64,000 nucleotides of DNA, from assembly GCA_016868035.1 (NCBI GenBank), contig VGID01000015.1, positions 1 to 64,000 of the forward strand. The letters run 5' to 3'. Positions 47,478 through 62,058 of the stretch are shown here, in pieces. The position numbers and the translations under genes are program-made. Position 1 is the stretch's first letter, and each line of letters begins with the position of its first letter. The notes under the pieces were generated by a model. That model was not told the origin of the DNA and searched no databases. It saw only the letters and a list, made by a program, of their open reading frames with translations. The stretch is from Betaproteobacteria bacterium. Lineage in GTDB: Bacteria > Pseudomonadota > Gammaproteobacteria > Burkholderiales > SG8-41.

Positions 47478-48758
47478 ATGAGCCTGGCTTCACAGCTTGG
47501 CGCTTTCGTCGCGGAGCTCGACCTCGAGCGCGTACCGCAGCGCGTGCGCACCAAGCTGCGCCACCACGCGCTCGATTCGCTCGGCGTGATCCACGCCGGG
47601 CAGAGCGCGCCGGAATCGCGCGCGTTGCGCGCGGTCGGCCCACACCCGGCTTTCTTCAATACGTTTTGCGGCCGTATCCATACCTTCGACGATACGTACG
47701 AAGCCGGCCCGATCCATCCCGGGACCTGCGTGCTCAGCGCGGCCCTTGCCGCCGCCGAGGAAAGCGGCGCCGCCGGCAAGCGCCTCCTCGAAGCCGTTCT
47801 TGCGGGCTACGAAGTCAGCATCCGCGTCTGCCTGGCGGCCGGCGCCGGCCATTACGCGGCCGGTTTCCACCCCACCGGGACCTGCAACGCCTTCGGCGCC
47901 GCGGCCGCCGCGGCGCACGCATACGGCTTGGATGCGCGCCGCACCGCCGCCGCGCTCGCGCTCGCCGGCGAAGCCGCCGCCGGCCTGCGCCAGCACCAGG
48001 AGGACGGCGGCATGACAGGTAGCGCCCTCAACGGCGCGCGCGCGGCCCGCACCGGCATAGAGGCCGCGCAGCTTGCGCGCGCGGGGCTCGCGGGGCCAGA
48101 GAAGATTCTGGAAGGCCGCTTCGGTTTCTTTGCAATGATGGACGGCCAGGGCGAGCAAAGCGCGATCGGGAAGGACCTCGGCATTCAGTACCGCTTTCTC
48201 GAAACTTCCCTTAAACCCTATCCCACCTGCCGCTTCACGCACGGTCCCATCGCGGCGCTGCGCACGCTGCGCCTCCACGCGCGCGACGTGGAATCGATCG
48301 AGCTCGCGGCGTTCCGGCAGTCGGTCGAAGTCTCGGACCGGCCGGAGATTCGCACGCGCTCGGGGGCGATCCTCAGCCATCAGTACGCGCTGGCGCTCGC
48401 GCTCACCCGGGAGCGCATTGCGCTCGACGATCTGGACGAGACCGTCAGAACCAATCCGGACTTGCGCTCGCTCGCCGGCCGCGTGCGCGTGGTGCACGAC
48501 CCGCGGCTCGACGAGCAATATCCGGCACGCTGGCCACACCGGTTGACCGTATTTTCGAAGAACCAAGGCATCTTGCGCGTCGAGAGCGACTTCCCGCCCG
48601 GCGGGCCACAGGCGCCGCTGGACGAAGCCGCAGTCGTAGCCAAGTTTCATGCTCTCGCCGATCCCGTGATGGGCTCGGCGTGCGCTGAACAGCTGCGTTC
48701 CACCGTATGGGCGCTCGAGTCGGCGCCCCGTGTTGCTGGCCTTATCGGACATTCTTGA
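47478..48758 (+). CDS. MmgE/PrpD-family protein
   Basis: 426 residues. Family landmarks are FDDTYEAGPIHPGT, LLEAVLAGYEVSIRV, HPTGTCNAFGAAAAAAH and SLKPYPTCRFTH, which shape the active site in 2-methylcitrate dehydratase and cis-aconitate decarboxylase. The reaction is usually dehydration, decarboxylation or epimerisation of a di- or tricarboxylate. It is divergent from the HyuBA-aldolase operon and overlaps the convergent ABC ATPase gene by 17 bp. Its closest relative in the window is the gene at 60263. Confidence 0.9.
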   Translation: MSLASQLGAFVAELDLERVPQRVRTKLRHHALDSLGVIHAGQSAPESRALRAVGPHPAFFNTFCGRIHTFDDTYEAGPIHPGTCVLSAALAAAEESGAAGKRLLEAVLAGYEVSIRVCLAAGAGHYAAGFHPTGTCNAFGAAAAAAHAYGLDARRTAAALALAGEAAAGLRQHQEDGGMTGSALNGARAARTGIEAAQLARAGLAGPEKILEGRFGFFAMMDGQGEQSAIGKDLGIQYRFLETSLKPYPTCRFTHGPIAALRTLRLHARDVESIELAAFRQSVEVSDRPEIRTRSGAILSHQYALALALTRERIALDDLDETVRTNPDLRSLAGRVRVVHDPRLDEQYPARWPHRLTVFSKNQGILRVESDFPPGGPQAPLDEAAVVAKFHALADPVMGSACAEQLRSTVWALESAPRVAGLIGHS

Positions 48759-49500
48759 GGCGCGAGTAGATTTCGTGGCGCAGCGCGGAGAACTCGGCGC
48801 GTGTGCGGTGCGCCTCGCTGCGCGGCCGCTCGAACGGGATGTCGAGGCTCGCGAGGATGCGCCCGGGGCGCGGCGTCATGATGATGACGCGGTCGGAGAG
48901 GTAGATCGCCTCCTCGATGCTGTGGGTGACGAAGATGACGGTCTTCTTCGCCGTGGCCCAGATGCGCAGCAGCTCGTCCTGCATGTCCTCGCGCGTCTGC
49001 GCATCGAGCGCGCCGAACGGCTCGTCCATCAGCAGCACCGCCGGGTCGATAGCGAGCGCGCGCGCGATGCCGACGCGCTGCTGCATGCCACCGGAGAGCT
49101 CGTGCGGGTATTTGCCGTCGAAGCCGTTCAGGCCCACCAGGCCGATGAGCCGCGCGGCGGCGCTGCGGCGCTCGGACTTCGGCACGCCCTTCAGCTCCAT
49201 GCCGAACTCGATATTGCCGCGCGCCGTGCGCCACGGGAACAGGTTGAACGACTGGAACACGAAGCCGCGCTCCTGCGTCGGCCGCTCGACCGGCTTGCCG
49301 TCCATCAGCACCTCGCCGCGGTCGGGCGGCGTCAGCCCGTCGAGGATGCGCAGCAGCGTGCTCTTGCCGCAGCCGCTCGGACCGAGAATGGCGACGAACT
49401 CCGAGTCCGTGACCTTGAGCGAGACGTCCTCGAGCGCGGTCACCGCGCCATCGCGGCTCTCGTAGGTCTTGTAGAGGTTGCGCGCCTCGAGGCTCGCCAC
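48742..49500 (-). CDS. ABC transporter ATPase (SsuB/TauB/NrtD type)
   Basis: 252 residues. Walker A GPSGCGKST (40-48), Q-loop Q83, signature LSGGMQ (135-140), Walker B LLMDEP and the switch histidine in VTHS. Last gene of the six-gene operon. It energises the two permeases upstream. Confidence 0.93.
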   Translation of the reverse strand: MASLEARNLYKTYESRDGAVTALEDVSLKVTDSEFVAILGPSGCGKSTLLRILDGLTPPDRGEVLMDGKPVERPTQERGFVFQSFNLFPWRTARGNIEFGMELKGVPKSERRSAAARLIGLVGLNGFDGKYPHELSGGMQQRVGIARALAIDPAVLLMDEPFGALDAQTREDMQDELLRIWATAKKTVIFVTHSIEEAIYLSDRVIIMTPRPGRILASLDIPFERPRSEAHRTRAEFSALRHEIYSRLKNVR

Positions 49501-49506
49501 GGCCGG

Positions 49507-50553
49507 CTAGCCCAGTTCCTTGAGCGCCTGCGCGACGATCCCCAGGTCCATCGCCGCCTTGAGGTCGACCGGCTTGTCCTCGATCGCCTGCGCCGCGTGG
49601 TAGTACGGCAGCAGCTTCTCGAGGTTCGCGGGACGGAACGCATTGTCCGCCGGCCAGACGCCGATGCCGTGCGCCAGCTCCTTCCAGTGCGCCTGCATCT
49701 CGGCTTCGGGCATCGTCTCCTTGTCCTTCAGCGTCGCATGCTTGAGGAACGCGGTCTTGTAGTAGCCGAAGTCGGCGGTGCCGCGCCGGCTCGCGAGGAT
49801 CACGCCCTTCATGAACGCCACCGCCTTGCGGCGGTTGGCCGGGTTCTTCAGCCAGTCGCCGCGCGCGAACACGATCTCGTTGATCCACGGGTCGTATTCC
49901 TTGTGCGGCACGAGGATCACGCGGTAGTTGCCGCTCTTCTGGATCTCGGGCACCTGGTCGAAGTGCACCACGGTGGCCTGCACGCGCTTGCTGAGGAGCG
50001 CGCGCAGGCGCGTGCCGCTGCCGCCGACGTCGGCCCATTTCACCTTCGAGAGGTCGCCGCCCGCCTTGAGGAAGCCGCCGATGATCATCACCTGTGTGAT
50101 GTCGCCCTGCGAGTTGATGCCGACGGTGACGTCGGGCTTCTCCAGGTCCTTCCAGGTCTTGATTTGGTCGGTGTTCACCGCCACCACCAGCGTGGTATGC
50201 AGGTAGAAGTTGCCGAAGATCACGAGGTCGGTGCCCGCCTGGCGGCCGCGCAGCAGCAGGATCGGCTCGGCGATGCCGATCTCGCCGGTTCCACCCATCA
50301 CCGTCTGCAGCACGTCGCGCATGCGCTGGAAGCGCTGCATCTCGACCTGCAGGCCGAGCTTCGGGCACTCGTCGGTGATGCCGTAGGTCGGCGGGCAGTG
50401 GATGCCGAGGGCAAAGCCGAGGTTGATCAACTTGACCGAGTCGGCTGCGGCCGCGGTCCCGGCGAATCCCGCGCTCGCCGCCAGCGGGATACCGCCGAGC
50501 AGGCGCAATGCGCTGCGTCTTGTCATCGGTTGCGCCATCGTGTGCTTGGACAT
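49507..50553 (-). CDS. ABC transporter periplasmic substrate-binding protein (NMT1/SsuA type)
   Basis: 348 residues with a twin-arginine-type signal (MTRRSALRLLGG, then an alanine-rich stretch to AAAAD). The body shows VQTMEG-like pairs (LQTVMGGTGEIGIAEP) and the binding-protein pattern KPDVTVGINSQGD. aggaggagg precedes the ATG at 50553. It captures the ligand for the adjacent permease pair; the AtuA neighbour hints at a branched or terpenoid acid, but this is inference. Confidence 0.88.
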   Translation of the reverse strand: MSKHTMAQPMTRRSALRLLGGIPLAASAGFAGTAAAADSVKLINLGFALGIHCPPTYGITDECPKLGLQVEMQRFQRMRDVLQTVMGGTGEIGIAEPILLLRGRQAGTDLVIFGNFYLHTTLVVAVNTDQIKTWKDLEKPDVTVGINSQGDITQVMIIGGFLKAGGDLSKVKWADVGGSGTRLRALLSKRVQATVVHFDQVPEIQKSGNYRVILVPHKEYDPWINEIVFARGDWLKNPANRRKAVAFMKGVILASRRGTADFGYYKTAFLKHATLKDKETMPEAEMQAHWKELAHGIGVWPADNAFRPANLEKLLPYYHAAQAIEDKPVDLKAAMDLGIVAQALKELG

Positions 50554-50575
50554 TCGTTCCTCCTCCTCTTGCGTT

Positions 50576-51340
50576 TCAGTTGGACAGCTGCTGGCGCTCA
50601 TCGTACCACGGCGCGGTCCTGCGCCCGAGCCATTTCAGCGCCTCGGTGAGCACGACCCCGACCACCATGATGGTGGCGAGGGCGCCCAAGAGCGACACCG
50701 TCGAGATCTCGACGCCGGAATTGTAGATCACGCCGCCGAAGCCCACAATCACGTACATCTCGGCGATCACCATCGCGCGGATCGCGTGCGCCAGGCCGAT
50801 GCGCATGCCCGCGAGGATGTACGGATAGAGCGCGGGCAGCAGCACCATGGTGAAGGTCTGCACGCGCGACGCCGCGAAGGAGCGCGCGGTCTGCATGAGC
50901 TCCGGGTTCACGTCGCGTGCGCCGTGGTAGGTGACGAGGAGCACGTACCAGACGGTGGCGATGAACACGATGGCGACGCGGAACGCGAGGCCGAAGCCGA
51001 ACGTGATGATGAAGAGCGGCACGAGCGAAGCGACCGAGGTGACGAACATCATGCTCACCCAGGGCTGCAGCAGCCCGTCGAGCAGGCGCGAGCGGCCCAT
51101 GGCGGTGCCGACGATGACGCCCACGGCGCAACCCAGGAAGTAGCCGAGCACGAGCTGCCGGAAGCTGCCCGCGAGCTCCGCGAACAGCTTGTAGCCGCGC
51201 ACCGTCGCCGGAAAGCCCGCCACCACCGCCGAGACCGGCGCGAACAGCGCCTCGCCGAGGATGCGGCCGAGGATTTCCCACAGCAAGAGAAAAGTGGCGA
51301 TGCCCGCGAGGCGCAGCGTCCAGGCGCGCGTGCGGCTCAT
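50576..51340 (-). CDS. ABC transporter permease (second)
   Basis: 254 residues, six helices, with the EAA loop (TARSFAASRVQTFTMVLLPA) that contacts the ATPase. Its ATG overlaps the stop of the first permease. Two different permeases imply a heterodimeric channel, whereas SsuC/TauC systems usually use one. Confidence 0.9.
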   Translation of the reverse strand: MSRTRAWTLRLAGIATFLLLWEILGRILGEALFAPVSAVVAGFPATVRGYKLFAELAGSFRQLVLGYFLGCAVGVIVGTAMGRSRLLDGLLQPWVSMMFVTSVASLVPLFIITFGFGLAFRVAIVFIATVWYVLLVTYHGARDVNPELMQTARSFAASRVQTFTMVLLPALYPYILAGMRIGLAHAIRAMVIAEMYVIVGFGGVIYNSGVEISTVSLLGALATIMVVGVVLTEALKWLGRRTAPWYDERQQLSN

Positions 51341-52098
51341 GTCTCGCTCCCGCGATGCCACGGAATCGCCCGACGCTCGATCAGCCGCATGCCTTCTTGG
51401 CACGCGAGGCCGAACAGACTGATGAACAGGATGATAGCGAACGCCGACGCGGTGTCGAACGCGTTGCTGCGCGTCTTCAGCATCTGCCCGAGGTTCACCG
51501 CTACGAAGAAAAGCTCCGCGGTGATCATGGCGTTGACCGCGCGCCCAATCCCGACGCGCAGGCCGGTAAAGATGAACGGCAGCGCGGCCGGGATCACGAC
51601 CAGGCGCCAAAGCGCGAGCCCCGACGCCTCCAGCGAGCGCGCGGCATCCACCAGCCCGCGGTCGACGTTGCGCGCGCCCTGCAGCACGTTGATCAGGATC
51701 TCGAAGAAGCACATGGCGAAGACGAGCGCCACGCGCCCCTCAAAGTACATGCCGAACCAGATGATGAAGAACGGCACCAGCGCCACCGGCGGAATGGCGT
51801 AGATCGCGTTCAGCACCGGCTCCACCGCGGTCGCGACCGGGGCGTTGCGCCCGATGAGGATGCCGATCGGGATCGCCGCGGCGACGGCGAGCAGGTAGCC
51901 TACGATCATATGCTGCACCGAGCCGGCGAGCGCGCGCGGCAGCGAGCCGTCGGCCGTCATGGTGGCGAGGCGGCCAAGCACCGCGCTCGGCGGCGCCAGC
52001 AGCCCTTTCGGCACGAACGCCGCGACCGCCTCCCAGGCGAGCAGCCCGAGGACGATCGAGACCGGGTAGAGCGCGAAGCTAGATCGGGATTTCCACAT
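51337..52098 (-). CDS. ABC transporter permease (first)
   Basis: 253 residues, six helices, EAA loop DAARSLEASGLALWRLVVIPA. The start at 52098 lies inside the end of the DUF4387 gene (20-bp overlap), and its stop overlaps the next permease by 4 bases. Confidence 0.9.
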   Translation of the reverse strand: MWKSRSSFALYPVSIVLGLLAWEAVAAFVPKGLLAPPSAVLGRLATMTADGSLPRALAGSVQHMIVGYLLAVAAAIPIGILIGRNAPVATAVEPVLNAIYAIPPVALVPFFIIWFGMYFEGRVALVFAMCFFEILINVLQGARNVDRGLVDAARSLEASGLALWRLVVIPAALPFIFTGLRVGIGRAVNAMITAELFFVAVNLGQMLKTRSNAFDTASAFAIILFISLFGLACQEGMRLIERRAIPWHRGSET

Positions 52099-52390
52099 CG
52101 AGCAGCGGCGCGTGCTGCTGCGCGCCGTACACGTCGGTGTCCCCGACCGCCCCCGACGCGATGCGCCGCTCAATGGTGGCCTTATAGGCGAAAGCCGGCG
52201 GGTACTCGGTGAACACGACCGACTCCACCGGCACGCGGTAGAGTTTCGCGATCAGCTTGGGCGTAATGACCCCGGTGCGGCGCACCTTCTCGAACGTGGC
52301 CGCGTCCTCGAACATGATGTCGAGCGTGAGCTCGAACGGCCCCGCGTTCTTGCTCTTGCAGGCCTTGGCGATGTCGCGCAGCTTGGGCAT
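52079..52390 (-). CDS. DUF4387 protein, AtuA partner
   Basis: 103 residues from the ATG at 52390, opening MPKLRDIAKACKSKNAGPF, the DUF4387 signature, and ending in the LYRVP..SV region and LDVEIPI. DUF4387 genes habitually follow AtuA-type genes and the pair is thought to work together. Function unknown. Only 4 bases separated its ATG from the atuA stop before the MITE-like element was inserted. Confidence 0.85.
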   Translation of the reverse strand: MPKLRDIAKACKSKNAGPFELTLDIMFEDAATFEKVRRTGVITPKLIAKLYRVPVESVVFTEYPPAFAYKATIERRIASGAVGDTDVYGAQQHAPLLDVEIPI

Positions 52391-52397
52391 CGCTCTA

Positions 52398-52520
52398 GAG
52401 CGTGTTATGAAGTTCGAACGCGGCGTACGTAAATTCAACGAGTTAGGTGAAGCGCAACCGCCGAGTTCGCTCTTCGCGCAGCTGTCATATCAAGCACTTA
52501 CGCAACTTCATAACAGGCTC
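52398..52520. mobile_element. 123-bp MITE-like element with 17-bp terminal inverted repeats
   Basis: Left end GAGCGTGTTATGAAGTT (52398-52414) and right end AACTTCATAACAGGCTC (52504-52520) are inverted copies with one mismatch, flanked by TA on both sides (52396-52397 and 52521-52522). There is no coding content. The ends and TA target resemble IS5/IS427-type elements, which may mobilise it; that assignment is inference. Confidence 0.8.
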
Positions 52521-53884
52521 TAGACCTTCTCGTACTCGATCGGGAACATCTCCAGCGGATCGTTCGGCTGCACCACGTGGCGCAGCGAGAACTGGTAGAC
52601 CGCGCCGCGCTCGATGTCGGAGGGCGAGAACGGGAACGCCATGTTGCCCTCCTTGCACAGCCGGCCCGGGAAATCGGTGTGCAGCAGCGTCACGCGCGTG
52701 ACCGAGATCACCGCGTTGGCGATGTCCTGGGACTTCGCAACGGCCTCCGCGAGCACGCCGACCTCGTGGGTTTTCGCGTCCTTCAGCGGCTCCCACTCGC
52801 CCATGACGCCGTTCTTGCCATAGAGGCGCAACACCAGCTCGTAGTCCCCCGACGAGACAGAAAGCGCGGCGACCTTGGTGGCCACCGATTCGCGCACCGC
52901 GGCGAGGAAGGAATCGATCTGTCCGATGAGCCCGGCGTCGCGCGTGCCGGCGAAGGTGATCGCGCTGTAGCCGACCTTCTCCGCGCCCTCCAGCTTGATC
53001 GTGTACGGCTGCGGCTTCCACTTCATGCCGGACACCCGCACCGCGCGCTCGCTGCGCGCCGCGATCGTGCACTCGGTGGTGTCGAGCAGGCCGCCGGGCT
53101 CCTTGTGGATGACCGGGCTCGCGTTCTCGTGCAGCGCCTGCACCGCGACCGAGAGCGGCGTGCAGCGCAGCTCGGGATTGAGCGGCTCGACCTCGACGTA
53201 ATCCTGCGCCACGGTGGCGAGCAGGCAATCGTGCTTCTTCGGCAGCGCCGCGTTGCAGGCGCATTCGAGCATCTTGCCGGCGAACCACGCCTGCGCCGGC
53301 GGGATGCCGTGGTGCAGCGCGAGCGCGGCCCAAGGCGACGGGTCGGTGCCGCGCCCCGCAAGGATCACCTGCGCGCCCGCCTCGAGCGCGGCGAGGTGCG
53401 GCTCCGGGCCCATCATGCCGACGATGCGCTCCGCGCGGTCGATGACCGCCCCGGTGAGCGGGCCCGCCGCGCCGAGCGGCTGGACGCGTCCCGCTCTGAG
53501 CTGCTGCTTCAGCCATCCCTTGTCCTGCTCGGAATGGATGAGCGCCAGCCTGAAGTGCAGATCGTGCTCGCGCGCGATCTCGCGCAGGATGCGTGCGCAG
53601 GTCTGCAAGTGCGGCTCGCCGCCCGCGCCGCCGCAGGTGCCGATCATCATCGGGATATTGTTCGCAATCGCGCCGCGCAAAAGGAGCGAGAGGTCGCGCT
53701 TGATTGCGAGCTCGCTCGTGAAAGTCTTTCCCGAGCCGAGGTAGTGCGGTCCGGGATCGGAGCTGCCGCCGTCGACGCCGATCATGTGCGGCTTGCGCTC
53801 GAGCCCCGCCTTGAGCGAGCTTTCCGGGAACCCGTAGCCGAGAATCCCGCTCGCCGAAACCATGCGTACCACGCCGTTTTTCAC
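52520..53884 (-). CDS. atuA: Acyclic terpene utilisation AtuA-family protein (DUF1446)
   Basis: 454 residues. It shows SASGILGYGFPESSL at the N-terminus, GVDGGSSDPGPHYLG, GTCGGAGGEPHL, and LAGRGTDPSPWAALAL in the middle, all typical of AtuA. The family is needed for citronellol/geraniol use in Pseudomonas, but its reaction is unknown. GTG start with gcggag upstream. First gene of the operon with DUF4387 and an ABC importer. Its TAG stop is at the edge of the MITE. Confidence 0.85.
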   Translation of the reverse strand: MKNGVVRMVSASGILGYGFPESSLKAGLERKPHMIGVDGGSSDPGPHYLGSGKTFTSELAIKRDLSLLLRGAIANNIPMMIGTCGGAGGEPHLQTCARILREIAREHDLHFRLALIHSEQDKGWLKQQLRAGRVQPLGAAGPLTGAVIDRAERIVGMMGPEPHLAALEAGAQVILAGRGTDPSPWAALALHHGIPPAQAWFAGKMLECACNAALPKKHDCLLATVAQDYVEVEPLNPELRCTPLSVAVQALHENASPVIHKEPGGLLDTTECTIAARSERAVRVSGMKWKPQPYTIKLEGAEKVGYSAITFAGTRDAGLIGQIDSFLAAVRESVATKVAALSVSSGDYELVLRLYGKNGVMGEWEPLKDAKTHEVGVLAEAVAKSQDIANAVISVTRVTLLHTDFPGRLCKEGNMAFPFSPSDIERGAVYQFSLRHVVQPNDPLEMFPIEYEKV

Positions 53885-53906
53885 TCCGCTGCTTTTATCA
53901 TATCAT
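53878..53906 (+). promoter_or_regulatory. Candidate promoter in the 31-bp atuA-prpD divergent gap
   Basis: TTTTCA (53878-53883) and TATCAT (53901-53906), 17-bp spacing, in the plus direction. The tatcatatcata run also reads TATGAT on the minus strand, so it may serve both genes. The plus-strand start would lie only a few bases before the ATG at 53916. Confidence 0.45.
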
Positions 53907-53915
53907 AGGCGCGAC

Positions 53916-55940
53916 ATGACCGCAGCCATTTCCGGGCTCGCGCGTTTCGCATTGCGGACCGATGTGCGCGAACTGCCGGCGCCGATCCTGCAGAAAGCCA
54001 AGGCTTGCCTCCTCTACGGCATGGCGGTCGGCCTGGCCGGCATGCGTACCGGCCAGGCCGCGCAGGCAGCGCGCGCCGTCGCGGTCGGCGATGACGCCAT
54101 CGCAGATCGCGAAGGCGCCAACGGCAAGGCCACACGTATCTTCGATGGCGCGAAGTGCGATGCCGCGCCTGCCGCCCTCGCTAACGGCACTCTGTTTCAC
54201 GCGCGCGTGCAGGACGACGCGCATCCCGCGGGCCACGTTGGCGTCGTCGTCATCCCCGCCGCCCTGGCGATGGCGGAGGCGACGCGCGCGAGCGGCGCCG
54301 ACCTGCTTGCCGCGGTAGTCGCCGGTTATGAGAGCGCGCTCAGAATCGGGCGCGATCATGCCGCGGACCTCAGCGCGCGCGGCTTTCGCACCACGCCTGC
54401 CTACGGTGTGTTCGGAGCAGCCGCGGCCGCCGGTCGCCTGCTCCGCTTCGATGACGGCACCATGGCCTACGCCTTGGGCCTCGCGCCCAACATGGCAGGC
54501 GGCCTGCGCGAGTTCGCCGCGTCGGGCAGCGAGGACTTCCCGTTCCAGGCCGGGACCGCCGCGGCGAACGGCATCATCGCGGCGCGGCTCGCCGCCGCCA
54601 GCGCCGGCTCGTCGACGAGCATTCTCGAAGGCGAAGCCGGCTTCTACCGCGCCTTCGGCAAGGACGGCCGGCACTACCGCGCGCGCCTGGCTGCGGACGT
54701 CGGCAAGGCGTTCGAGATCATGGGCATCACGTGGAAGCCCTATCCCATCTGCCAGTTCCACCGCGGCATCGTGCGCGGCTCCTTGCTCCTGCGCGAGCGC
54801 GCGCGCGGCGCGTCGCTCGCCGCGCTGACCATCCGCATGAATCCTTTCGAAGCAGATTTTTTCGGCGTGCGCTTCTCCGGGCCTTTCACCACATTCCCGC
54901 AGACCTTCCCGCAGGTCACGGAATACCGGCAACACACGCTGGTTTGCGGCAGATGCGGGCATGAAACCAGAGCGTGCCTGCCACAGGGCGTGCCGGTGGA
55001 ACAGTTCGGCCCCCGGCTCTTGGCGACGGTGGGGCTGTTGACCGGGGCGTATCATTTGAGCAAGCGCACGGCACAAGAGATGTTGCGCGACCTGTTCGGT
55101 GTGCGCCTGTCGTTGGGGGCGCTGAGCGGCTGCGAAGCCACCGTCAGCGACGCCTTGGCCGCTCCGGTGACCGAGGCGCACGAATGGGTGCAGGAGAGCC
55201 GCAGCGCTCACGCTGACGAGACCGGCTGGCGCGAGCGGCGGCGTCTGGCCTGGCTGTGGGTGATAGCCACGCGGCTGGTCACGGTGTTCAAGGTCCACGC
55301 GCGGCGCAATCGGGAAGCAGCGCGCGCGTTGTTGGGCCGGTTCCACGGGGTGCTGCATTCGGATCGCTGGGCGGCCTACAACATCCATACGGGGCTGCGG
55401 CAGTTGTGCTGGGCACATTTGCTGCGCGATTTCACGGCCATGAGCGAGGCCAGTGGCCGGGCCGCAGCGATCGGGCGCCGGCTGGTGCGCCGGGCGAAGA
55501 AAGTGCTCAAGCGCTGGCATTGCGTGCGCGACGGCACCTGGAGCCGGAAGCGATTCTTGCGTCGCACGCTGTATCTGCGTCAGAAGATCGAACAGGATCT
55601 GGCGCTGGGGGCGCGCTGTGGCCATGCCAAGACGCAGCACACCTGCCGGCGCATCCTGAAATTCTCCACGGCGTTGTGGACGTTCGTCCACAAACCGGAC
55701 GTGGAGCCTACCAACAACGCGGCCGAGCGCGCCATCCGTCCGGCGGTGCTCTGGCGCAAGCGCAGTTTCGGCACTCACAGCGAGCGCGGCAGCCGCTTCG
55801 CGGAGCGCATGTTGACCACGTTCATGACGCTCAAGCAGCAACAGCGTCCGGTCGTGGACTATGTGAGACAGGCTTGCCAAGCGTTCCTCCAAGGACAGAG
55901 AGTCCCATCTCTCGTGCCGATTTCAAAATACGGGGCGTGA
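53916..55940 (+). CDS. MmgE/PrpD protein fused in frame to an IS66 transposase (chimera)
   Basis: 674 residues. Residues 1 to about 334 are a PrpD protein highly similar to the intact one at 58900 (LFHARVQDDAHPAGHVGVVVI, WKPYPICQFHRG, RMNPFEADF). At FPQT the frame passes directly into an IS66 DDE transposase that lacks its N-terminal part but keeps the catalytic blocks (HADETGW, HSDRWAAYN, NNAAERAIRP). The frame is open for the whole length, but PrpD has lost its C-terminal fourth and the transposase its DNA-binding head, so neither activity is expected. The ATG at 53916 is preferred to 53862, which overlaps atuA. Confidence 0.85.
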   Translation: MTAAISGLARFALRTDVRELPAPILQKAKACLLYGMAVGLAGMRTGQAAQAARAVAVGDDAIADREGANGKATRIFDGAKCDAAPAALANGTLFHARVQDDAHPAGHVGVVVIPAALAMAEATRASGADLLAAVVAGYESALRIGRDHAADLSARGFRTTPAYGVFGAAAAAGRLLRFDDGTMAYALGLAPNMAGGLREFAASGSEDFPFQAGTAAANGIIAARLAAASAGSSTSILEGEAGFYRAFGKDGRHYRARLAADVGKAFEIMGITWKPYPICQFHRGIVRGSLLLRERARGASLAALTIRMNPFEADFFGVRFSGPFTTFPQTFPQVTEYRQHTLVCGRCGHETRACLPQGVPVEQFGPRLLATVGLLTGAYHLSKRTAQEMLRDLFGVRLSLGALSGCEATVSDALAAPVTEAHEWVQESRSAHADETGWRERRRLAWLWVIATRLVTVFKVHARRNREAARALLGRFHGVLHSDRWAAYNIHTGLRQLCWAHLLRDFTAMSEASGRAAAIGRRLVRRAKKVLKRWHCVRDGTWSRKRFLRRTLYLRQKIEQDLALGARCGHAKTQHTCRRILKFSTALWTFVHKPDVEPTNNAAERAIRPAVLWRKRSFGTHSERGSRFAERMLTTFMTLKQQQRPVVDYVRQACQAFLQGQRVPSLVPISKYGA

Positions 55941-55956
55941 TCCCCTGAACGGTTAC
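54919..55956 (+). mobile_element. IS66-family element, left part deleted
   Basis: Transposase tnpC C-terminal two thirds plus the right terminal repeat, which ends CCCTGAACGGTTAC at 55956 (reading inward GTAACCGTTCAGGG, the IS66-type terminus). The left end and any tnpA/tnpB genes are missing, so the element is immobile alone. Confidence 0.75.
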
Positions 55957-56012
55957 GAATTTCCTATGCGCCCGGGCGTACCCACGCGCATATCAACGAG
56001 GAGGACAGCTCC

Positions 56013-56931
56013 GTGAGAAGATTTAGAAGCGATCGAAATTCGGCTTTTTCTTCGAGTGCGGCGGTCCGCATCACCGCTTCGCCCGCATTCCAATTCCGCA
56101 CCGCCCGCATCGTGTGGGTCTTCTTCCTGTCGTTGTGCGGCATGCTCGGTGGATAACCGGCCCGGCGCTGGCGGCGTCGTAGGCTCGGGTGTCGCGGCGA
56201 AATCGGCGCCCGACGGTTACACCTACCTCTTTGCAGGCAGCGCGGCGGCCGCGATCGCTCCGAGTCTCCACGCCAACGTGCCCTACGACCCGGTCAGGGA
56301 TTTCGCCGCGGTGACCAACATCGCTTCGATACCGTTTGTCTTTTGCGTCAATCCGGCGTTGCCGGTCCGGAACATGCAGGACCTCGTCCGGCTCGCCAAA
56401 CAGCGGCCCGGCGAAATCAGCTATGGCTCGTCGGGGAGCGGCGCGACGAATCACATCGCCCAGGCGCTGTTTGCGTTGATGGCCGGAATCAAGCTCACGC
56501 ACGTACCCTATAAGGGCGCGGCACCGAGCCTGCTCGATCTCATAAGCGGCCAGATCGCGCTGGTGCTGGAAACGACGCCCGCGGTCCTCCCGCACCTGAA
56601 AGCGGGCCGCATCCGCGCGATCGGCGTGGCAGGAAGCAAGCGCGTGCCATTCCTGCCCGACGTGGCGACGGCCGACGAACAGGGCATCAAGGGTTATGAC
56701 GTCGTCGCGTGGGGCGGTCTGCTCGCACCGGCCGGGACGCCGGCACCCATCCTCGACCGCATGAACGCCGAGATCGTGAAGATTCTCAATACGCCGGAGC
56801 TCCAGAAGCGCTTCAACGACATGGCGATCGTTGCGATCGGCGACTCGCGCGAGCATTTCGGCGCGTACATCAAGTCCGAGGTCGCGAAGTGGGCCAATGC
56901 GATCAAGCTCACGGGCGCGAAAGTGGAATAG
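56013..56931 (+). pseudogene. TctC/Bug receptor with an internal deletion
   Basis: A GTG at 56013 with gaggagg upstream starts a signal-peptide-like head (TARIVWVFFLSLCGML) that reaches a stop at 56152. The rest of a receptor (VDNRPGAGGVVGSGVA, PDGYTY, HVPYKGAAP to the end GAKVE) continues from 56149 in another frame. About 55 residues between signal peptide and DNRPG are missing. Functional secretion is impossible. It lies just before a serine hydrolase. Confidence 0.8.
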
Positions 56932-56956
56932 AGGGACACGTCGAGGACGACGGTCG

Positions 56957-58135
56957 ATGAAAGCCGCCCACCACGAAGCGATCGATCCGAAAGCGAACGA
57001 TCTCGTGCGCGAGGCCATCGCGTATTCGATCCGCGTGCATGGCGAGGTCGGCGTTCAGGTCGCGGCTTATCTGAACGGGCGGCTCGTCATCGACACCTGG
57101 GACGGCATCGCCGATCCCGCGACGGGACGCCGGGTCGACGGCGACACGCTGTTCAACGTTTTCTCCGTCACCAAGGCCGTCACGGCGGTCGCGGTCCATA
57201 TTCAGGCCGAGCGCGGTCTCGTCGACTACGACGCACCCGTCTCCCGCTACTGGCCCGAGTTCGGCGCGAAAGGCAAGAACGGCACGGTACGCCACGCCCT
57301 CACGCATCGACTCGGCGTGCCCTTCATGCCGGAAGGCGTGACGCCGGAGACCATGTGCGACTGGAACTGGATGGTGCGCGAGCTTACCGGCATGGACCCG
57401 CAGTACGCCAAGAAAAGCGCCTACCACGCGATCACGCTGGGCTGGATCCTCGGCGAGATCGTCCGTCGCACGGACCCGCAGCACAGGGATTTCGGGACTT
57501 TCGTTCAGGAAGAAATATGCGCGCCGCTCGCGATCGGCGACCTGTGGATCGGCATACCCGACGCAGTCGAGCCGCGCGTCGCCACGCTGATCGATTATCC
57601 GAGCCTGCCCCCGTACCGCCAGCCGGGCTCGCCCGGGTACCGCTCGCAGCCGACCAACATCGGAACGTGCGCGGCGGTCTATGGCCGCCCCGACGTGCGG
57701 CGCGCCTGCATCGCCGCCGCGGGCGGAATTTTCAACGCGCGCAGCACCGCGCGGTTCTTCGCGATGCTTGCGAACGGCGGCGAGCTCGACGGCGTGCGCC
57801 TGCTGTCGGAGGCGCGTGTGCGCTCACTCGGCCAACCGCGGCCGAATCCCGACGAGGTCGACCCGGTGCTCATGTTTCCCCTGCAGGTCGGCATGGGCGG
57901 GCTGCGCATAAACGATCGCCCCGAGCCGCGCATGAGCACGGCCTCGGTCGGGACCAATCCGCGAGTCATCTACCACCCGGGCGCGGGAGGCTCGATCGCA
58001 TGGGCAGACCCGGATGCCCGTCTCGCGGTCGCCATTTGTCACAACCGAATGTTCGATACCTACGTGAGCGCCGATAAGGATCCGTTCGTGCCGATCGGCA
58101 ACGCGGTGCGCAAAGCGCTCGGAATTCCGACATGA
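56957..58135 (+). CDS. Serine hydrolase, class C beta-lactamase/esterase fold
   Basis: 392 residues, no signal peptide, so probably cytoplasmic. The catalytic S70-V-T-K73 lies in FSVTKAV, a Y-x-x motif occurs in SAYHAITLGW (about 155-164), and HPGAGG near residue 342 replaces KTG. This arrangement suits esterases, amidases or lactone hydrolases such as EstB rather than a resistance enzyme. Its stop overlaps the next receptor start (ATGA). Confidence 0.88.
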   Translation: MKAAHHEAIDPKANDLVREAIAYSIRVHGEVGVQVAAYLNGRLVIDTWDGIADPATGRRVDGDTLFNVFSVTKAVTAVAVHIQAERGLVDYDAPVSRYWPEFGAKGKNGTVRHALTHRLGVPFMPEGVTPETMCDWNWMVRELTGMDPQYAKKSAYHAITLGWILGEIVRRTDPQHRDFGTFVQEEICAPLAIGDLWIGIPDAVEPRVATLIDYPSLPPYRQPGSPGYRSQPTNIGTCAAVYGRPDVRRACIAAAGGIFNARSTARFFAMLANGGELDGVRLLSEARVRSLGQPRPNPDEVDPVLMFPLQVGMGGLRINDRPEPRMSTASVGTNPRVIYHPGAGGSIAWADPDARLAVAICHNRMFDTYVSADKDPFVPIGNAVRKALGIPT

Positions 58136-58258
58136 GAGCTCGACTGATCCGTTACACCCTGCTTGCCGGCTGCGCCCTCGCGAACGGCTTCGCGCACGCG
58201 CAAGTCCGCGATTTCCCGACGCGCCCTGTGCGCATCGTCGTGCCGTCGGCGCCCGCGG
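58132..58258 (+). pseudogene. N-terminal fragment of a TctC/Bug receptor
   Basis: MRARLIRYTLLAGCALANG signal peptide, then RDFPTRPVRIVVPSAPA, after which homology stops and an IS fragment begins. It overlaps the serine hydrolase gene by 4 bases, so an operon partner was destroyed. Confidence 0.75.
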
Positions 58259-58465
58259 ATTGTTCTTGCGGGCCGCGAGTTCTGCCAATCCCTTGCGAAT
58301 GGAGTTGCGCGACATCCCCGTCGCGCTGCTCACCGCGCTCACGCCGCCTCGCCCGTAAGTTTGCGCTTCGCTCCCCGCCCACTGCCGGCGCATGCGCTCA
58401 TCCATGAGCCTTTCGAGCGCCCGATAGCGCGTCTTGATCTGGCGGAGCGTGGCCGCATCCTGCAT
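58259..58465 (-). pseudogene. ISAzo13-family transposase, N-terminal fragment
   Basis: Read leftwards: MQDAATLRQIKTRYRALERL, DERMRRQWAGSEAQTYG, GGVSAVSSATGMSRNSIRKG, the helix-turn-helix head of ISAzo13-type transposases. It ends at the junction with the receptor fragment (about 58259). About 69 residues of a protein several hundred residues long. Confidence 0.7.
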
Positions 58466-58899
58466 ACCCCCATTAAACGCGAGAAATTCGAATTGATCAA
58501 GTTATTTTCACTCGGTCCCGAAGAAGCGATTGTTGTGCACTTCACGAATCGCTACGCGGCATTTAGCGGCCACAAAGCGCATGCGAGATGCAAACGAAAA
58601 TTGATCACAGCGATTTCGATCGGTATTCGCTTATTTCAGGACTAGCGGCCATCCGCCAAGAGGTTGTTTCTACTAATTCGGTTAAGGCGCGGCAGACGGT
58701 GAGCGCGGTGGAGGTGATCCGTCGCGCCTCATGGTGCCGCCCAGCGTGTCATTGGAGCGGGAAACCCGCTTCGCAGCGGCAGGTCAACACACGACCAGCC
58801 GCCACGAAGCGCCCGTCCCAATGACGGCGGCACAAATCGGCTCGCCGCATCACTTCCACCGCGCGCTGCACGCCGCAACAACGTGTTGACGGTTCAAAG
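58466..58899. other. Gene-free stretch between the IS fragment and a PrpD gene
   Basis: No convincing gene. The left part is probably the non-coding end of the ISAzo13-type element; the right part is the imperfect palindrome at 58698-58867. Confidence 0.5.
58698..58867. repeat. Long imperfect inverted repeat (about 170 bp)
   Basis: agcgcggtggaggtgatc at the left end is mirrored by cacttccaccgcgcg at the right. Further in, gtgccgcc/ggcggcac, gtcattgga/cccaatgac and aacccgcttcg/cgaagcgcccg pair, leaving a short centre near 58785. It lies after the PrpD stop (read on the minus strand) and may be a MITE relic or an RNA hairpin. Confidence 0.55.
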
Positions 58900-60276
58900 C
58901 TAGCGCTTGCTGGCCTCGGCCGCGCATGCGCCTGCCGCCGCCATGAGCGCCTGCGTATCGGCCGCATCGACGATGCCGTCCACGGCAGCCGCCAGCGCGC
59001 GCATGCTGCGCTCGGAGATGCCGACTTCCGCGCACAGTTGCGCGTTCATTTCCATCGCTCGTTGCCAGGTGAGCCGGTAAGCGTCGGCGCCTTCGCTTTC
59101 TTCCCACTCGAGGAGCGTTCCGTCCTCGAGCGTCACCCCCAGCCGCGACGAATAACGCGCGCGCGCCGGATCGGAAATCACCTCGATCGTGCGAACGAGC
59201 GCGAGGACTCTTTCATCGTCGAAGTCATGAAGGCCGTCGAACGTCACCGCCCGGCGCGCCCAGCCGAGGGCGGCGCAGAACGGCGCGCTCATCAGCGTCT
59301 GCGGGAAGCTCGAGAACGGCCCCGCGTTGCGTATGCCGACGAAGTCGGCCTCGAACGGATTCATGTGGATCGCGATCCGGCGCGGCCGCCGGCCACCCGC
59401 GCGGCGGCTCAGCTCGATCGTGCCGCGAACGACGCCGGTGAGGAACTGGCAGATCGGGTAGGGCTTGTAGGTGATGTGCTCGAGCTCGAATTCTTCGCCG
59501 AGCGCCTGACACACGCGCCGGGCATACCGGTCGCTGTCGGTGCCGTAGGCTCTGAAGAAGCCGGCGCGCCCGGTGAGCGCGCTCGGCGCGCCTTCGGCGC
59601 CCGCCGCCGCCATGTCTGTCGCGAGCAAGCCGTTGCGCGCGGCAAGCCCCACCTGGAACGGACCTTCCTCGGTGCCCGCGTCGGACCATTCCCTCAGCCC
59701 GGCGGCCGCGTTGGCGGCGAGCGACAGCGCGTTCGCGCACGCGTTGGCGTCGAGCTTCATCGCGCGCGCGCCGCACGCCGCCGCGGCGAAGACGCCGTAG
59801 GCCGGCGTCGTGCGAAAGCCGCGCCGGCTCAGATCAGCGGCGTGATCGCGACCGATGCGCAGCCCGACTTCGTAGCCGGCGACGAGCGCTGCGAGGAGAT
59901 CGCCGCCCGGCGCCCCGAAGCGCTCCGCGCACGCGAGCGCGACCGGAATCACGACGACGCCGAGATGACCGCACGGATGCGCGTCGTCCTGCACGCGCGC
60001 ATGCATGAGCACCGAATTGCAGAACGCGGCCGATGCGTAGTCGAGCTGACGCCGGTCGAAGAGGCGCGTCGCGCCCGCGCCGCCGTCGGGCGATTCGCGG
60101 TCGATCGCGCGCGCGGCCTGCCCCGGCTGCGGCGCGCGGAGGGACGCCGCGCCGACCGCGAGTCCATAGAGCAGCAGGGCCTTCGCTTTCTCGACGATCT
60201 GCGGCGGTAGCCGCTCGCAGCGCGTTTCCACGGCGAACCGGCCGAGCCGGGCGAATATCGCGTCACCTTCCGTCAT
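58900..60276 (-). CDS. MmgE/PrpD-family protein
   Basis: 458 residues, full length. LMHARVQDDAHPCGHLGVVVI, LVAGYEVGLRIGRDHAA, YKPYPICQFLTG and HMNPFEADFVG match the N-terminal portion of the chimera at 53916, which shows what that gene lost. It overlaps the upstream PrpD by 14 bases, an unusual tandem pair. Confidence 0.9.
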   Translation of the reverse strand: MTEGDAIFARLGRFAVETRCERLPPQIVEKAKALLLYGLAVGAASLRAPQPGQAARAIDRESPDGGAGATRLFDRRQLDYASAAFCNSVLMHARVQDDAHPCGHLGVVVIPVALACAERFGAPGGDLLAALVAGYEVGLRIGRDHAADLSRRGFRTTPAYGVFAAAACGARAMKLDANACANALSLAANAAAGLREWSDAGTEEGPFQVGLAARNGLLATDMAAAGAEGAPSALTGRAGFFRAYGTDSDRYARRVCQALGEEFELEHITYKPYPICQFLTGVVRGTIELSRRAGGRRPRRIAIHMNPFEADFVGIRNAGPFSSFPQTLMSAPFCAALGWARRAVTFDGLHDFDDERVLALVRTIEVISDPARARYSSRLGVTLEDGTLLEWEESEGADAYRLTWQRAMEMNAQLCAEVGISERSMRALAAAVDGIVDAADTQALMAAAGACAAEASKR

Positions 60277-61666
60277 TGCCTGTTCCTTCCGTTTTCAATG
60301 TGCTCATGAACCGCCGCATGTCCGCGCAATCGGGCAGGCGGCGTATCGCGGCGAGCGTTTCACGCGCGCGTTCCGCTCCGAAGTGCGCCGCGCAATGCTC
60401 GAGAAACTTCGCATCGACGATGTGGCGCGGCACCGGCGACGCCCAGCCCGGCGGACATTCGCTCAGCGCGGAAAAGGTCCGGCCGTCGCCGAGCGTGATC
60501 GTCACGCGGTGCGGGCACATGCGCGGCACCAGCGTTTCGAGCGCCGGGTCGTGCACGACGCGTATCCTGTCGAGCAGTCGCAGGACATCCGCGTCGGCGA
60601 GCGCCGCCTCGGAGAACGACGACAGCGCCACCTTGTCCTTGACGAGCGCGACGGCGACGCCGTACTGGTGCCCGGTCGTGGCGTCGTAGCGCGTGCGCAC
60701 GCGCGGCCGGTCGCAGACCTCCATCGACTGGCGGAAGGTGGCGATTTCGACGCCGGTCACTTCGCGCGCGTCGAAGGCGTGCCGGCGTTTCAAGTCGAGC
60801 GCGGTCTCGATCGGCCCATGGATGTAGAACGCAGTCGGGTACGGTTTGATCGCGGTGCGCATGAGCTCGTAATCGACGCCGAGCTTCGCGTCGAGGCGGC
60901 TCAAGTTGGGCTCGCTCGCCATCACGGTGCAGAAGCCCAGCGGGCCGTCCAGTATTCCGGCCGGTCCGCCGACGCCCGCTGTGCCCAGCTCCGCGACCAT
61001 GACGCCCGATTGCGCGGCGCGCGCGCCGTGGAATGCCGAGTCCAGCATCGAGCCGTCAAGCTGATGCTGGCGCAGCCCGGCCGCGGTCGCGCCCGCGAGA
61101 CCGAGCGCTTCGGCCGTCTGTGCAGGCGTGAGGTCAAGCACGCGTGAGGCCGCTGCCGCGGCGCCGAAGACGGTGCAGGTGCCGGTGCTGTGAAAACCGG
61201 ACCGGTAGTGGGACGGACTGACCGCGGCGGCCACGCGCGTGACGACCTCGTAACCCGCCGTGACGGCCGAAAGAAAGGTCGCGCCGTGCACAGCGTGTTT
61301 CTCGGCCAGCGCCAGCGCCGCCGCGACGACGGAATTTCCCGGATGCACGTTACCCGGCTCGTGGGTGTCGTCGAACGGATGGCTGCGTCCATGGAGCGCG
61401 TTCAGGAACGCCGCTGTCGCAGCAGGGTAAGCATCGCCCAGGCCGACGAGCGTCGCATCTTGGCCCCGGCCCCATTCGCGCGCAGCCTTACGCGCGCGCG
61501 CGCAGGCGTCGGCGTCGATGCCGGCGAACATGGTCCCGATCGTATCGACGACGTGGTCCACGACCTTGGATTGGACGGCCGCGGGCAGCGCTGGCCAGTC
61601 GACGCGTGCCGCGAACGCGGCGAGCTGACGGCCGCGCTCTCCGGGCCGCGATCGGTCAGGCGACAT
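60263..61666 (-). CDS. MmgE/PrpD-family protein
   Basis: 467 residues. It shows HPFDDTHEPGNVHPGNS, AVTAGYEVVTRV and IKPYPTAFYIHGP, closer to the protein at 47478 than to its neighbour, so the two tandem PrpDs are different subtypes. The ATG at 61666 lies inside the first copy of the 106-bp repeat, so codons 1 to about 6 are also present, slightly altered, in the downstream copies. Confidence 0.88.
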   Translation of the reverse strand: MSPDRSRPGERGRQLAAFAARVDWPALPAAVQSKVVDHVVDTIGTMFAGIDADACARARKAAREWGRGQDATLVGLGDAYPAATAAFLNALHGRSHPFDDTHEPGNVHPGNSVVAAALALAEKHAVHGATFLSAVTAGYEVVTRVAAAVSPSHYRSGFHSTGTCTVFGAAAAASRVLDLTPAQTAEALGLAGATAAGLRQHQLDGSMLDSAFHGARAAQSGVMVAELGTAGVGGPAGILDGPLGFCTVMASEPNLSRLDAKLGVDYELMRTAIKPYPTAFYIHGPIETALDLKRRHAFDAREVTGVEIATFRQSMEVCDRPRVRTRYDATTGHQYGVAVALVKDKVALSSFSEAALADADVLRLLDRIRVVHDPALETLVPRMCPHRVTITLGDGRTFSALSECPPGWASPVPRHIVDAKFLEHCAAHFGAERARETLAAIRRLPDCADMRRFMSTLKTEGTGNDGR

Positions 61667-62056
61667 CTACGTGTCGCGCGCGTGACCTGCTTCGGGGTCG
61701 CATCCCCGCAAGCGGGGCCCCTGCTCCGCCCTCCGCAGGGCGCGCTCCGAAGTGCGATCGGTCAGGCACCATCTACGTGTCGCGCGCGTGACCTGCTTCG
61801 GGGTCGCATCCCCGCAAGCGGGGCCCCTGCTCCGCCCTCCGCAGGGCGCGCTCCGAAGTGCGATCGGTCAGGCACCATCTACGTGTCGCGCGCGTGACCT
61901 GCTTCGGGGTCGCATCCCCGCAAGCGGGGCCCCTGCTCCGCCCTCCGCAGGGCGCGCTCCGAAGTGCGATCGGTCAGGCACCATCTACGTGTCGCGCGCG
62001 TGACCTGCTTCGGGGTCGCATCCCCGCAAGCGGGGCCCCTGCTCCGCCCTCCGCAG
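61651..62056. repeat. 106-bp tandem repeat, 3.8 copies
   Basis: Copies begin at 61651, 61757, 61863 and 61969. Copies 2-4 are the same over their shared length; copy 1 differs near cgacatc/caccatc and spans the prpD start. Each contains the hairpin CCCCGCaaGCGGGG. The array fills the whole gap between the upstream receptor (stop at 62059) and prpD. Direct, without spacers. Confidence 0.95.
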
Positions 62057-62058
62057 GT

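Follow-up and report, generated by a model that had tools for sequence, protein, structure and literature searches.

Deletions adjoining insertion sequences produce pseudogenes and chance fusion frames. The locus analyzed here resembles such pseudogenes in that one end of an insertion sequence is kept while the other has disappeared along with a portion of the adjacent gene, and differs from them in that the join is in frame, as would be expected in a third of cases. It lies in a stretch of 64,000 nucleotides, referred to as the window (positions 1 to 64,000 of the forward strand of contig VGID01000015.1, assembly GCA_016868035.1, Betaproteobacteria bacterium), and unites parts of two known systems, a gene of the MmgE/PrpD family, which includes 2-methylcitrate dehydratase, cis-aconitate decarboxylase and IDS epimerase, and an IS66 element of the one-gene ISBst12 type. 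The nearest transposase found is carried by L073, a contig of the MAG 'Burkholderiales bacterium isolate SJ92'. Like the elements of the ISBst12 type, L073 has a single gene, encoding DUF6444, a weak zf-IS66 and DDE_Tnp_IS66 within about 1,560 bp, and the tips of the L073-type element are GTAAGCG / GTAACCG. ISDge4 is assigned to the ISBst12 group by its single ORF; its tips are GTGACT / GTAACT, and it is accompanied by an 8-base target duplication (PMC12898284).

Positions 53916-55940 of the window form one open frame of 674 amino acids, running from an ATG at 53916 to a stop codon at 55938-55940 with no internal stop. The frame continues open upstream to 53838, and although a further ATG is available at 53862, the homologues begin near 53916 in the alignment. 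Pfam assigned MmgE_PrpD_N (PF03972) to residues 8-250 (E 7.6e-44) and DDE_Tnp_IS66 (PF03050) to residues 363-626 (E 5.7e-39) of the chimera, and both homologies are far above chance. The frame and the two Pfam domains bear out a preliminary description of this DNA, which had reported an in-frame chimera of 674 residues in which the N-terminal part of PrpD is followed by the catalytic portion of a transposase of the IS66 type. The same description had counted 334 PrpD residues and placed the junction near 54919; here the chimera stands, but its PrpD part comprises 331 residues and the join falls about 10 bases to the left. In the alignment with a paralogue and nine intact relatives, PrpD homology stops at residue 330/331, with codon TTC at 54906-54908, and in the comparison with L073 the IS66 homology runs from 54909; the position of the deletion join (54908..54909, forward strand) is uncertain by a few bases. 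The 9-base sequence TTCCCGCAG is present twice in the window sequence, 12 bases apart, flanking the join. Microhomology of this kind may have made the join.

The PrpD half (53916..54908, forward strand) is the 5' part of a prpD/mmgE gene, corresponding to codons 1-331 of about 450. It is recognized by PF03972, by the alignment with the nine relatives and by its similarity to an intact paralogue at 58900-60276 in the same window, with which it shares 56% identity over 330 residues. This paralogue in turn matches, along part of its sequence, solved members of the family including 7bra and 2hp3. The nine relatives are the top place in each of the nine best genomes, own genome excluded, of a DNA search in which 49 of 74 family genomes were matched; they have 447-462 residues, counted from starts that were set by script and are not always methionine. 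Like the members of the MmgE/PrpD family, the chimera has a nearly complete N-terminal domain. Unlike them, it is cut in its second domain at residue 331 of about 450, and some 120 C-terminal residues are missing. The second Pfam domain, PF19305, was not reported for the chimera, and the intact paralogue does not reach the cut-off of this domain either. Up to residue 331, the chimera keeps 84 of the 88 residues that are invariant across 10 intact PrpD proteins; in leave-one-out controls, each of the ten intact proteins was scored over the columns that show no variation among the remaining nine, and they kept from 88/88 down to 88/101. The best DNA match of this half outside its own genome showed 70% identity (74 family genomes).

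Four prpD-type genes lie in about 14 kb of the window (47478-61666), namely 47478-48758, the chimera, 58900-60276 and 60263-61666, and at E 0.001 prpD was matched 18 times in the own genome; for the relative G005 the count was 75. A tandem array at 61648-62057, with 3.9 copies of a 106-base unit and 99% matches, overlaps the first bases of the minus-strand gene 60263-61666.

The IS66 half (54909..55940, forward strand) is the 3' part of a transposase gene, encoding the complete DDE domain and, ahead of it, the last part of the zinc finger. Its DNA identity to L073 (positions 513-1560) is 87% from 54909 through the right end of the element, and the proteins are 85% identical over residues 1-339 of 340. 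The L073 transposase has 474 residues, with Pfam domains DUF6444 at 20-92, zf-IS66 at 108-152 (22.0 bits, below the Pfam cut-off of 27.3) and DDE at 165-429. Unlike the ISBst12-type elements, the window copy has lost its left part: it retains 1,048 IS66 bases of about 1,560, and the left 515 or so are absent, including the left tip, DUF6444 and the first half of the zinc finger. The right terminal inverted repeat (55942..55956, reverse strand), which read inwards has the tip GTAACCGTTCAGGGG, is intact and the same in L073. An intact right end and a missing left part had been noted before, and both were confirmed by this exact tip ending at 55956 and by the comparison with L073.

The L073 contig begins 3 bases inside its left tip; the left-tip counterpart, GTAAGCGTTCAGGGG, was taken from L075, another contig of the SJ92 genome. 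In L076, a third SJ92 contig, the bases before AGCG differ, so the tip of that copy is not identical. A consensus scan of the window allowing up to 3 mismatches gave 3 tip matches against a shuffle mean of 3.39; the right tip was the sole exact one, and the left tip was not found in the window. With only the right terminal repeat, the window IS66 is a remnant and not a whole element, and such a copy should be unable to move by itself.

In the alignment with relatives, the D, D and E of the DDE domain, which we take to be its catalytic residues, are in place in the chimera. At about 1320-1330, L073 has K in place of the E of the triad, which is present in the window fragment and in each of the two outgroups, and given this replacement the L073 copy is probably inactive. 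Two cyanobacterial sequences of about 43-46% identity served as outgroups for assigning the substitutions, because the search of viral contigs for a third close transposase gave only one locus, at 30%. Over 200 columns where the two cyanobacterial relatives agree, the window has 5 lone departures and L073 has 7. The dN/dS of the window against L073 was 0.24 over 336 codons, a value that reflects mostly the history preceding the deletion.

Insertion sequences are common misjoin sites. Together with the draft state of the genome (127 contigs, 3.9 Mb) and the presence of three unusual joins within 3.4 kb, this would agree with a join that is only computational, the two genes lying apart in the cell. 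The join, however, sits inside IS66 and not at its end, no N bases are present at 54908/54909, and no long stretch is common to both sides, the longest seen being the 9-base repeat described above. Furthermore, no other IS66 DNA copy was found in the own assembly, where the protein-level search gave just one 26% identical stretch (E 2.1e-6). An assembly error is not favoured by these observations and we regard it as improbable.

To the right of the element lies a broken tctC gene (56013..56931, forward strand), recognized by comparison with four relatives and by PF03401, which begins at residue 32 in the open frame 56056-56931. Read by eye, it starts with a GTG at 56013, preceded by GAGGAGG, and 56 bases separate the IS66 right tip from this GTG. 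The window tctC thus follows the chimeric prpD on the same strand, across IS66. Directly after prpD and on the same strand, tctC was also found in five of the nine relatives (L079, L080, L083, L084 and L085). The other four have no same-strand tctC after prpD: the gene lies ahead of prpD in L081 and L082 and is convergent with it in L078, and across the 13,000 bases of L077 none was found at E 1e-20. The tctC genes beside prpD in the relatives are 37-40% identical to the window tctC, and the best elsewhere in the family reach 55-58%; the argument is therefore one of gene order of the same kind, orthology being unproven.

The IS66 element did not simply split prpD, because no C-terminal prpD remnant was found after its right tip: the C-terminal part of the paralogue matched only itself and six other places, the latter at E 0.09 or worse. 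A plain split was rejected on this ground. The missing remainder also tells against the reading that IS66 entered prpD at codon 331 through one-ended or partial transposition and that no deletion followed; the exact right tip would agree with that reading. The 8 bases following the right tip, GAATTTCC, have no partner near the join, where any partner would have been lost with a deletion; the window contains them four more times, but never inside prpD, which likewise speaks against one-ended transposition. Such an origin seems to us exceedingly improbable.

Given the absence of the prpD remainder and the order of tctC in relatives, insertion into the gap followed by deletion is the simplest history. 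We consider it very likely that the chimera is a deletion scar, produced by an IS66 insertion between prpD and tctC, one deletion, and the chance in-frame join of two truncated genes. A one-gene IS66 element would have entered the short prpD-tctC gap, as the gene order in relatives suggests. A later single deletion, at least about 0.9 kb long and reaching from prpD codon 331 into the element as far as approximately base 516, would then have removed the end of prpD, the remaining gap and the left third of IS66, and the two truncated genes would have been joined in frame by chance. The missing parts are evident from comparison with relatives; their loss in a single event is an inference. The product, if made, would consist of a PrpD lacking the greater part of its second domain and a transposase catalytic domain without its N-terminal region, the transposase part having no left end to act on; it would most likely be unfolded or inert. 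The deletion was probably recent, both halves being little decayed. As a counterpoint, the good preservation of both halves (84/88 residues in PrpD; 5 against 7 lone departures in the transposase) fits a young fusion as well as selection, and by itself cannot tell which.

Other genes in this region are broken as well. The tctC gene to the right of the element has lost about 40 residues and its frame near 56146-56149; four tctC relatives carry some 40 residues between the signal peptide and VDNRPGAG that are absent here. Further right, the N-terminal part of another tctC gene (58132..58258, forward strand), named by eye from an open frame (58132-58407) with no Pfam match, is abutted by a 5' fragment of an ISAzo13-type transposase (58262..58465, reverse strand). 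The latter also has no Pfam match and was identified by tblastn against plasmids, in which the best row (50.8% identity) was unannotated and the next rows (about 54%) were annotated as ISAzo13 family transposase. The stretch 58132-58465, with its two fragments on opposite strands, is a second break between an insertion sequence and a host gene. With three break points inside 3.4 kb, a decaying region is a likelier explanation than a single purposeful fusion. In the interval from the ISAzo13-type remnant to the prpD paralogue, at 58703-58864, there is an inverted repeat whose 39-base arms are 79% complementary and lie 84 bases apart, perhaps a small mobile or palindromic element.

The distribution of the transposase half and of the join was determined in several collections. 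At E 1e-60 the transposase half was found in one of 399 order genomes, a sample of a larger group, and this was its own genome. A DNA search of the same genomes with the IS66 half, scoring 2 candidates per genome, matched 21 of the 399, own genome included, and the other 20 matches were short (25-62 bases, E 2.4e-5 or weaker). Scanning genome_contigs with six short peptide patterns, which reach close relatives only, revealed one relative, the uncut transposase of L073. In plasmids no near match to the IS66 half was found at the DNA level, and at the protein level 214 records were obtained, all with less than 60% identity to the transposase half. The join was not found in viral contigs. Thus, with the transposase half, its DNA and the join as queries, no second genome with the fusion was found among the order genomes, genome_contigs and viral contigs.

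This result bears on the proposal that the frame is a selected fusion gene, in which the PrpD and DDE parts have a new joint function or the DDE domain has been domesticated. In its favour are the open frame without a stop, the conserved residues kept by both halves and the D, D and E in place. On the other hand, both proteins are cut within a domain, the neighbours are broken, and the fusion was confined to one genome in the searches made. The open frame does not help to decide: among the frames over base 54909, the fusion frame was open for 700 codons, one antisense frame for 674 and the other four for 9 to 169. Since the antisense strand offers a frame just as open, at 674 codons, the length of the chimera frame carries no weight for function, and frame length as a sign of selection was rejected by this control. 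An in-frame join of two same-strand open genes arises by chance in 1 of 3 cases, and the open frame is not beyond chance. We therefore regard a selected fusion as very improbable.

The preliminary description had also judged the chimera likely to be expressed, citing an intact upstream promoter. This claim was not upheld, the open frame being without weight and the candidate promoter being one 9-of-12 sigma-70-like match at 53878-53906, where shuffles of 53400-56400 gave an expectation of 0.3 (sd 0.6). The match ends 9 bases ahead of the ATG at 53916 and runs into the start listed for atuA (52520-53884), a divergent gene; as a consensus match it hints only weakly at a promoter upstream of the chimera. 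Transcription of the fusion from a prpD promoter, with the IS66 catalytic domain serving a cellular role attached to the host enzyme, for example as a nuclease tethered through PrpD or by acting in a dominant-negative manner on other proteins of the PrpD type, is hardly credible to us. The sequence evidence gives no sign of a functional fusion protein, and it appears unlikely that the chimera works as an enzyme or as a transposase.

In the GC-rich DNA found here, a long open frame over a join does not indicate that the fusion is functional. The chimera is instead read as a further example of insertion sequences eroding adjoining genes, and a lineage rich in prpD, with 18 matches in the genome, may be able to afford losing one.
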